DNA of 64,000 nt from contig NZ_QCZJ01000005.1 in the NCBI RefSeq assembly GCF_003075435.1, forward strand, positions 62,001-126,000, read 5' to 3'. The notes beneath the pieces were generated by a model. It saw nothing but the letters and a program-made list of their open reading frames with translations. It was not told the origin of the DNA and did no database searches. This stretch comes from Terrimonas sp. (GTDB taxonomy: Bacteria; Bacteroidota; Bacteroidia; Chitinophagales; Chitinophagaceae). Positions 38,421 to 40,603 of this stretch are shown here, in pieces. The translations under genes and the position numbers were made by a program. Position 1 is the stretch's first letter. The number at the start of each line of letters is the position of its first letter.

Positions 38421-38431
38421 ATTTTATTCTT

Positions 38432-38456
38432 TTGAGGTGCCAAATTGGCTCCTCAA
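38432..38456. repeat. ORF6N palindrome, copy 1 (relic)
   Basis: A 25-base palindrome with 11 of 12 paired positions (arms ttgaggtgccaa and ttggctcctcaa). Read on the minus strand it encodes NLRSQFGTS, the same spot as the palindrome in the intact ORF6N gene, followed by a stop. It is a fragment of a former ORF6N gene or a mobile copy of the palindrome. Confidence 0.65.
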
Positions 38457-38525
38457 GTTGAAATGATTAATGTTATGCGGTGGGAACAGGAGTAATGGAA
38501 CTAATTAATAATGAGATGCGGGAGA

Positions 38526-38786
38526 AAGCCCGAAGGGCTTGAATGTGCATAGCCCTGAGTGCAACTCAGGGTATAAAAAGGATAAATGAACGGTACAACC
38601 CTGAAAGGGTTGAATAAAGTAGTTAAATCCTTTAAGACAATGTGATTTAGTTAGACGGTTGAATGCCTTTTTATACATATAGTTATGAAAGACCTGTTAC
38701 CGATTATGGAAGATAATGTCGCCTCTACGAGGCTTTGATAAATGGGCTTGGGTTCTACCAAAATATTGCCCTTACAGGGCTTGATT
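38526..38786. repeat. Array of short palindromes
   Basis: Five hairpins follow each other: aagcccgaagggctt (38526), ccctgagtgcaactcaggg (38553), caaccctgaaagggttg (38596), gcctctacgaggc (38721) and gcccttacagggc (38768). They are separated by AT-rich linkers. This pattern is a known type of Bacteroidota intergenic repeat in my memory, without an assigned function; a REP element moved by a RAYT is one possibility. Confidence 0.65.
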
Positions 38787-38998
38787 TAGACTTAATGATA
38801 AAATGGTAGTATTCATTCAATAATTAATAGACAAATCATCTTTTAATAAGCGTTCTTTTGTCCAGGTCGGTACGATCGATATTATCAGGTATGGGTTCGG
38901 AACTTTACTAAAGTTCCGAACCCTACCTCACTGCCTGGTGCAGGTTTCTGAGCTGTGTCAGGCTGTTGTTTTTGATTCAACGGGGAAAAGTATACTGA

Positions 38999-39760
38999 TC
39001 ATTTGAATATTCCTGAATACAGTTTAGTATCGTAATGAATGGTAATAAAACCGTTGCTATGGAATTTATTGAATAATTTCTGTAGATCATCTATCATCGC
39101 AGCATATCCTTCATCGCCTTCAGCAGGCATATAAGAGGAAGAAAGTAGTCTTCCTTTTAAACCTTCAAAATCGAAAACCTGCCGGTTGGAAAAAATTTGT
39201 AACCGGCATTTTTGAGGTTGAAAAAATTGCTCAATATTTTCCGTATTGATATTGCGGTGGTCAACCTTCACGTAGTCTTTGCCGTGCCTGACAATAAGTT
39301 GGTCATATGCTTCTTCAAAAGGGGAATGAGTAAGCCTCTCATTCCATATTAATATAACCAAACCTCCCGGCTTAAGAATTCGCAGGAATTCAGTTTTTGT
39401 TTTGGCAGCATCAAACCAATGAAATGCCTGCCCGGCAACAATAGCATCTATACTTTGGCCGAGGAGGGTAGTAGCTTCTGCAGTTCCGTTTATTGTTTTA
39501 AAATTTGTATGATCTTTTAGCAGGTGCTCCGACATCTTACGCATGGGCGCATTGGGCTCTACACCAAATACTGTATATCCATTCTTTAAAAAAAGATCTG
39601 CAGAAATGCCTGTTCCGGAACCGATATCTGCAATCACATTTGAAGCAGGAAATGTATAATGTGTTTGCAGCCATAATACAAGTCCTTCCGGGTAGCCGGG
39701 CCGGTATTTTACATAATTCTCAACACGGTTGCTGAACCGGGTGGTGCTGTTTGTTGGCAT
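38999..39760 (-). CDS. Class I SAM-dependent methyltransferase
   Basis: A 253-residue methyltransferase with motif I VIADIGSGTGISADLF (residues 38-53), the acidic strand FGVEPNAPM, motif II-like DAIVAGQAFHWFD and motif III LKPGGLVILIWNE. It belongs to the type-11 small-molecule group with the FHWFD box seen in many uncharacterised proteins. The substrate is not inferable. It stands alone between repeat-rich spacers. Confidence 0.86.
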   Translation of the reverse strand: MPTNSTTRFSNRVENYVKYRPGYPEGLVLWLQTHYTFPASNVIADIGSGTGISADLFLKNGYTVFGVEPNAPMRKMSEHLLKDHTNFKTINGTAEATTLLGQSIDAIVAGQAFHWFDAAKTKTEFLRILKPGGLVILIWNERLTHSPFEEAYDQLIVRHGKDYVKVDHRNINTENIEQFFQPQKCRLQIFSNRQVFDFEGLKGRLLSSSYMPAEGDEGYAAMIDDLQKLFNKFHSNGFITIHYDTKLYSGIFK

Positions 39761-39802
39761 AGATCTGAATTTTATAGCAAAAAGTGATGAACCAAAGTTA
39801 AG

Positions 39803-39943
39803 TCAGAGCATGTATTCGGGTAGATATTTTAAACCTCCCAAATTTGAGGTGCCAAATTGGTTCCTCAAGTTTTGCTATTCTTCAATAGTAAGTTCAAACA
39901 TGAAATCATCTGGATAGCGGCTAAGATCCCGGTCAGGAAACTT
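39803..39943 (-). pseudogene. ORF6N domain gene fragment with in-frame stop
   Basis: The minus-strand translation reads PDDFMFELTIEE, stop, QNLRNQFGTSNLG and then KYLPEYML, which aligns with EDFMFQLTETEWENLRSQFVTSSWGGRRYLP of the intact ORF6N gene 400 bases to the right. The fragment has lost both ends and carries one internal stop. It includes copy 2 of the palindrome (39844-39868). Confidence 0.75.
39844..39868. repeat. ORF6N palindrome, copy 2
   Basis: A 25-base palindrome (arms ttgaggtgccaa and ttggttcctcaa) inside the ORF6N pseudogene. One pair is T-T and one is G-T, so it is slightly worn compared with the perfect copy in the intact gene. Confidence 0.65.
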
Positions 39944-39975
39944 TCCTTACTATGTCGATGTCTGGCGGTTCTTAA

Positions 39976-40479
39976 TCATTTCTTAAATCCAATTCTTTCC
40001 CGATTGCTAAAATCCTCCTCCTTTTGCTTTTTATCAAGTAAATAATTGAGCGCTTCATAAGTATCCTTAAAACGTTTCTGAGTGGATTGTTCTATTTCAA
40101 ACAGTTTTCTGTTTAGCTCTTTATATTGTAGCCCTGCCTCTCTGAGTGTAATAAATGCTCTTACAACAGCAATATTCATTTGTATAGCCTTTTCGCTTTT
40201 TAACACGCTGGCAAGCATGGTAACGCCATGTTCTGTAAAAGCATAAGGCAGGTATCTTCTGCCGCCCCAACTTGAGGTCACAAATTGTGACCTCAAGTTC
40301 TCCCACTCTGTTTCGGTCAGTTGAAACATAAAATCTTCCGGGAAACGGTCAATATTTCTTTTAACTGCCTGGTTTAAAATTTTTGTTTCTACCTCATATA
40401 TCCCGGAAATATCAAAATCAAGTATCACCCGTTCGCCTCTTATAGTGAATATCTTTTGCTGGATAATGGTAAGTTGCAT
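39976..40479 (-). CDS. ORF6N domain DNA-binding protein
   Basis: A 167-residue protein with an N-terminal ORF6N domain (about 10-100): IRGERVILDFDISGIYEVETKILNQAVKRNIDRFPEDFMF, then LPYAFTEHGVTMLASVL and a C-terminal helical/coiled segment. ORF6N/KilA-N proteins are phage-derived DNA-binding proteins widely spread in Bacteroidota. The stretch coding for LRSQFVTS is a perfect 29-base palindrome (40270-40298). It has its own transcript away from rpsJ. The target is unknown. Confidence 0.88.
   Translation of the reverse strand: MQLTIIQQKIFTIRGERVILDFDISGIYEVETKILNQAVKRNIDRFPEDFMFQLTETEWENLRSQFVTSSWGGRRYLPYAFTEHGVTMLASVLKSEKAIQMNIAVVRAFITLREAGLQYKELNRKLFEIEQSTQKRFKDTYEALNYLLDKKQKEEDFSNRERIGFKK
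40270..40298. repeat. ORF6N palindrome, copy 3 (perfect, inside the gene)
   Basis: acttgaggtcac and gtgacctcaagt pair around aaatt, a 29-base palindrome with no mismatch except the centre. It is within the reading frame and has paired base differences from copies 1 and 2. Confidence 0.8.
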
Positions 40480-40558: not shown

Positions 40559-40603
40559 GAGCTGCTAAAAGCCCATAGCCTCATGCCCACAGCTATAAAT
40601 TTT
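40559..40603. repeat. Degenerate AGCTGATAGC-type repeat before the S10 operon
   Basis: The stretch contains gagctgctaaaagcccatagcc and cccacagctataa, worn copies of the spacer repeat found elsewhere in the window. It lies just upstream of the rpsJ promoter. Confidence 0.35.

Follow-up and report, generated by a model that had tools for sequence, protein, structure and literature searches.

Intragenic operators of bacterial repressors include lac O2, which lies in lacZ, and the internal operator of gal. Palindromes also occur in coding sequences as Rickettsia palindromic elements, selfish sequences of ~100-150 nt found in many unrelated genes (PMC4316617), and in the mitochondria of Nematomorpha, where coding palindromes of up to 284 bp are without known protein recognition (PMC6649704). 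The ORF6N and Bro domains of phages form a domain-swapping network (PMC10111431), and the protein encoded at the locus described here is a clear ORF6N protein (PF10543). In the open-access papers searched, which do not cover most subscription journals, no description of an in-gene target site or a base-recognition code for ORF6N was found.

The window, i.e., the whole stretch of 64,000 nucleotides of Terrimonas sp. that was analysed, carries three copies of a palindrome together with an intact ORF6N gene and the remnant of another:

40269..40299, no strand assigned: in-gene palindrome, AACTTGAGGTCACAA-A-TTGTGACCTCAAGTT, perfect (CM R1, 45 bits)
39841..39871, no strand assigned: decayed palindrome in the ORF6N pseudogene (CM 31.3 bits; two mismatched pairs)
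38429..38459, no strand assigned: stand-alone intergenic palindrome (CM 31.7 bits; one mismatched pair)
39976..40479, minus strand: intact ORF6N gene, 167 aa (Pfam PF10543, E=2.8e-37, and open reading frame)
39818..39931, minus strand: ORF6N pseudogene remnant (PF10543, E=1.4e-4, below the cut-off; one in-frame TAG)
40351..40386, minus strand: recognition helix of the predicted helix-turn-helix, residues 32-43 (AlphaFold helix 32-41; code-bearing columns 36 and 40)
40369-40371 and 40381-40383, minus strand: codons of Q37 and K33, respectively, in the recognition helix

All three palindromes that the preliminary description had placed here are real, and a relaxed palindrome pattern gave six matches in the window (the three places on both strands) and none in 100 dinucleotide shuffles. 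The copy centred on 40284 lies inside the intact ORF6N gene (127.3 bits against PF10543, exceeding the Pfam gathering score of 27.8) and is perfect as had been said, with 15 of 15 bases paired; the exchanges from G-C to C-G and from C-G to A-T between the first and third copies were also correctly described. The copy at 39844 does belong to an ORF6N pseudogene, which is interrupted by an in-frame stop, and the mismatches of this copy fall in the fifth and sixth pairs from the centre; in the orthologue in genome G007 the decay is more advanced. The palindrome at 38432, which has a single T.T mismatch in the sixth pair from the centre, had been taken for a relic of an ORF6N gene, a view that we do not share, as only the palindrome itself is common to the two. 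No ORF6N remnant was seen around it outside the palindrome, and genome G005 has a homologous stand-alone palindrome situated beyond the stretch that is homologous to the 38432 neighbourhood, so that this copy is, as far as can be seen, a stand-alone site. The leader of the window's ORF6N gene contains no copy of the palindrome. Insertion of the ORF6N gene via a palindrome at the rpsJ locus was considered and rejected, since homology with the empty genomes stops near 40595 and not at a palindrome. Another inverted repeat, perfect over 15 bp, lies in intergenic DNA at 38893-38923 (GGGTTCGGAACTTTA / TAAAGTTCCGAACCC, around a single central nucleotide); its sequence bears no relation to that of the ORF6N palindrome.

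A sample of 80 ORF6N genes from many phyla, with 29 more from viral contigs, shows that a palindrome at the place encoding LRSQFxTS is present in nearly all the ORF6N genes collected. The preliminary description had held that other ORF6N genes without a palindrome there would speak against its being maintained; at least 9 of 11 bases were paired within the loop in 107 of 116 genes, compared to 4% in synonymous-codon shuffles, and only 10 of 580 control windows of the same genes reached this level. Every pair of the palindrome was found as several Watson-Crick types among the ORF6N copies. Across 52 diverse copies 94.9% of cells were paired, 11 of the 12 pairs showed double changes, and compensated cells numbered 154, whereas shuffles gave 39.7 and slid controls 15-40; these 52 copies were preselected as palindromic, and the codon-shuffle comparison of the 116 genes is the unselected test. 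Pairing is therefore kept in the LRSQFxTS region of other ORF6N genes, for which the covariation check had been proposed, and the codon-shuffle control and covariation confirm on more than 100 genes that the DNA itself is maintained. Some ORF6N genes carry the palindrome in another reading frame (encoding ITNCDN) or further along the loop, and in the AlphaFold model the residues it encodes fall in a low-confidence surface loop that leads from helix 56-62 to strand 79-82.

In a comparison of the palindrome's inner letters with each column of the protein alignment, column 40 (residue Q37 of the window protein), which is in the predicted recognition helix, gave a mutual information of 1.48 bits (z=52) with the inner pairs. 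The other columns that stood out belong to the same helix or are encoded by the palindrome, and all remaining columns had z<6. The residue at column 40 predicts the inner letters: TCAC for Gln, TCGC for Glu, TTCC for Lys and mostly TGCC for Arg, which by half-site corresponds to Gln-CA in 190 of 194, Glu-CG in 49 of 50, Lys-TC in 20 of 20 and Arg-GC in 33 of 44. At column 36, which corresponds to K33, Lys is accompanied by GG at pairs 7-8 in 149 of 166. Altogether 292 of 312 half-sites (93.6%) fit the protein of their own gene, compared to 42.7% with residues permuted (maximum 53%), suggesting that in ORF6N the sequence of the site is set by the recognition residues. Among the closest disjoint gene pairs that differ in the column-40 residue the site differs in 46 of 46, and among the closest pairs with the same residue it is the same in 69 of 70 (relatedness was measured outside the helix and palindrome, and the differing pairs were up to 86% identical). 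Relatedness does not explain the code, because in all 46 of these residue-differing close pairs the site differs as well. The window's own genome has four types of ORF6N paralogue (Gln, Glu, Arg and Lys), each with the matching type of palindrome, and the site at 40269..40299 (TCAC, the Gln type, with GG, the K33 type) agrees with residues Q37 and K33, making it the proposed target of the ORF6N protein of its own gene. Textbook base preferences are Gln for A, Lys or Arg for G and Glu for C, and the ORF6N pairings agree with them. In the AlphaFold model of the window protein, helices 21-28 and 32-41 form a block with pLDDT >90, and the coevolving columns are within helix 32-41; structural comparison gave no significant match in the PDB, and no solved relative of the fold was found. 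The link between residue and site is, as far as sequence can tell, the signature of a coevolving symmetric protein-DNA interface.

From the computed palindrome, covariation and residue-to-base code we infer that the palindrome is very probably the DNA target of the same gene's own protein, which would bind as a dimer via its helix-turn-helix and most likely repress its own gene. The preliminary description had named a self-binding target of the ORF6N protein among several options, and the code (292 half-sites, 46 contrasts) strongly supports this one; the case for the in-gene site as the protein's own target is strong, and autorepression would be its likely consequence. In such an interface the inner letters, pairs 4-5 counted from the centre, would be read by residue 37 (window numbering) and pairs 7-8 by residue 33, and any change of specificity would have to alter both arms; the compensatory exchanges in both arms would follow from the same helix being presented to each half-site. 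The pairing itself is most readily understood as the two-fold symmetry of a putative dimer site rather than as selection for a hairpin. The site falls in the part of the gene that encodes a disordered surface loop of the protein, which would tolerate nearly any residues, so that the gene and its matching site could travel together in horizontal transfer. Once bound within the reading frame, the protein would most likely block RNA polymerase there and so repress its own gene.

Copies were counted with a covariance model built from the palindrome, which found about 1-10 per genome in the genus. Among 61 genomes of the order, 23 had palindromes (E<=0.02) and 21 had ORF6N, with near-complete overlap; the element occurs almost only together with ORF6N genes. 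A pair-score scan around 117 ORF6N genes gave 117 in-gene matches, 95 of them at an identical offset, and about 27 further copies centred 24-160 nt upstream of the ORF6N start codon as well as several just downstream, with almost no matches in reversed-sequence controls. Stand-alone copies in intergenic DNA, which the preliminary description had suggested looking for, thus exist. These additional copies agree with the code of their own gene no more often than chance (32 of 80 half-sites, p=0.58), so that simple autoregulation via a promoter operator is unsupported; other ORF6N proteins may bind them, or they may be older sites. The spacings between leader and in-gene copies, judged by eye, showed no obvious helical phasing of the kind sought for DNA looping.

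Some loci with extra copies are worth recording. Four tandem palindromes with four different arm sequences lie directly downstream of an ORF6N gene in L101 (6488-6662), and two of them are of a code type other than that of the gene's own protein. Nearly identical stretches of ~370 bp with a stand-alone palindrome occur in three genomes in different surroundings (L028, L029 and L023, near position 1512), and two of them adjoin what we take, by eye, to be AbiE-like toxin-antitoxin genes. At L196 3011 a stand-alone palindrome of the ORF6N type lies ~200 bp upstream of a DUF1016-like gene. One stand-alone copy stands beside what looks by eye like a Y1-like transposase (L193), yet that genome has only three copies, and a RAYT/REP link was rejected. 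Palindromes of type TGAGGTCTCAA, which lie between structural genes of phages, resemble terminators of a single phage lineage, and TGAGGTCTCAAnTTGAGACCTCA, which lies between two genes in one phage lineage (L224, L225, L227, L229 and similar viral contigs), is probably a terminator too.

RhuM (PF13310) and DUF1016/YhcG (PF17761) genes from the same order likewise contain palindromes whose place in the gene is fixed. Of 28 RhuM genes, 14 formed at least 11 of 12 pairs, compared to 1.4% in codon shuffles, as did 12 of 29 DUF1016 genes, compared to 0.7%; control reading frames gave 0.7%. Covariation was as strong as in ORF6N, in copies preselected as palindromic. A palindrome was found in 44 of 50 RhuM genes, and the helix of an N-terminal HTH-like stretch shows a code similar to that of ORF6N (Thr/Glu or Thr/Tyr-CG, Ala/Lys-TC, Thr/Arg-GC, Asn/Met or Asn/Leu-AA), with Thr/Glu-CG in 14 of 14 and Ala/Lys-TC in 8 of 8. 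For DUF1016 the best column outside the palindrome-encoded residues reached z=5.5 at pair 7 (31 genes), and a link of the site to the FSxxNL stretch is suggestive only. Among the loci collected (RhuM, L390-L419; DUF1016, L420-L449) the DUF1016 genes often had two sites 108 nt apart. In Escherichia coli K-12 MG1655, yhcG (L450 7828-8955) contains three palindromes spaced by 39 nt, and a fourth, perfect one lies ~28 nt after the stop (L450 8983); they share the core CAGACAnTGTCTG and differ in their outer arms; because this gene carries four such palindromes, the idea is testable at once there. E. coli genomes differ in the palindrome copy number of yhcG and by replacement of a ~160-nt block that contains HTH-like residues together with palindromes; in natural strains, deletions of 80 nt and replaced blocks end at palindromes. 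The copy after the stop differs between strains by a compensatory exchange from G-C to C-G. What is proposed for ORF6N appears to apply to RhuM and DUF1016/YhcG genes too, and a general design is likely in which at least three mobile families (ORF6N, RhuM, DUF1016/YhcG) carry a self-matching in-frame site, with gene, specificity and target evolving as a unit and a partly shared code (Glu to CG, Lys to TC, Arg or Lys to GC).

Near-perfect pairing of arms that vary would also fit a palindrome that is kept as a folded hairpin, either mRNA structure or DNA cruciform, and recognised by its shape, with arms free to change as long as they pair; the different arms of the copies within one locus (L101) had suggested such a sequence-free hairpin. 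We consider it very improbable and dropped it given the residue-to-site code, as the arm sequence is predicted by the recognition-helix residues and hence is not free, and at position 2 almost all copies keep the central A-T pair, even though the loop that it would close is very small. G.U pairs would be expected to be favoured in an mRNA hairpin, but coding-strand mismatches in the ORF6N coding copies were A.C in 20 and G.T in 10 cases (13 and 13 in non-coding copies), so that the element most likely acts in DNA. With roughly 30 G.T against 37 A.C over coding and non-coding copies, and an Rfam search at the palindrome that matched no family, the RNA switch raised in the preliminary description is disfavoured: neither the tolerance of G-U above A-C nor the known family that would mark a structured RNA was found. 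It is very improbable that the palindrome is instead a mobile repeat comparable to Rickettsia palindromic elements or REP, using the ORF6N loop as a harmless refuge and kept perfect by copying between its arms. Stand-alone copies, loci with tandem or multiple copies and the differing copy number in E. coli yhcG would suit such a repeat, but the many dispersed copies in unrelated places that characterise REP and RPE were not seen: genomes have about 1-10 copies, nearly all with ORF6N, the position in the gene is the same across phyla, the site is matched to the recognition helix and palindromes have decayed in pseudogenes.

Own-gene binding might serve a purpose other than autorepression, such as guiding recombination, gene replacement or allele rivalry, with the extra copies of other code being targets of foreign or paralogous ORF6N proteins. 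We regard this as a tentative and rather unlikely alternative. It would account for the in-gene site being the only one to match its own protein, and the unit-wise replacement of the yhcG block, the deletions that end at palindromes and the nuclease C-terminal domain of YhcG point the same way, but the correlation between N- and C-terminal parts is unchanged at the ORF6N palindrome and the window's ORF6N locus has no empty/filled junction at a palindrome. Recombination or domain swapping at the ORF6N palindrome was rejected on the lack of any dip in this correlation, and the recombination or copying site suggested in the preliminary description is therefore unsupported in the ORF6N data, although palindrome blocks have been gained, lost and replaced in E. 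coli yhcG.

Recognition of its own gene by a self-targeting protein would give these common but uncharacterised phage and mobile-element families a likely function, sequence-specific recognition; a predictive residue-to-base code is rare, and RNA-like covariation in coding DNA would be explained without any RNA. Like Rickettsia palindromic elements, the ORF6N palindrome lies within protein-coding genes and leaves the frame unbroken, but it is 25-31 nt long, keeps to one fixed place per family at low copy number and is matched to a protein. The coding palindromes of Nematomorpha are likewise perfect inverted repeats retained in coding sequence and differ in belonging to mitochondrial genes and in reaching 284 bp. 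Lac O2 and the internal operator of gal are, like the proposed ORF6N site, palindromic protein-binding sites in a reading frame with a role in transcription (for ORF6N a proposed one); unlike them, the ORF6N site lies in the putative binding protein's own gene, where its position is the same from phylum to phylum and its sequence coevolves with the recognition helix.
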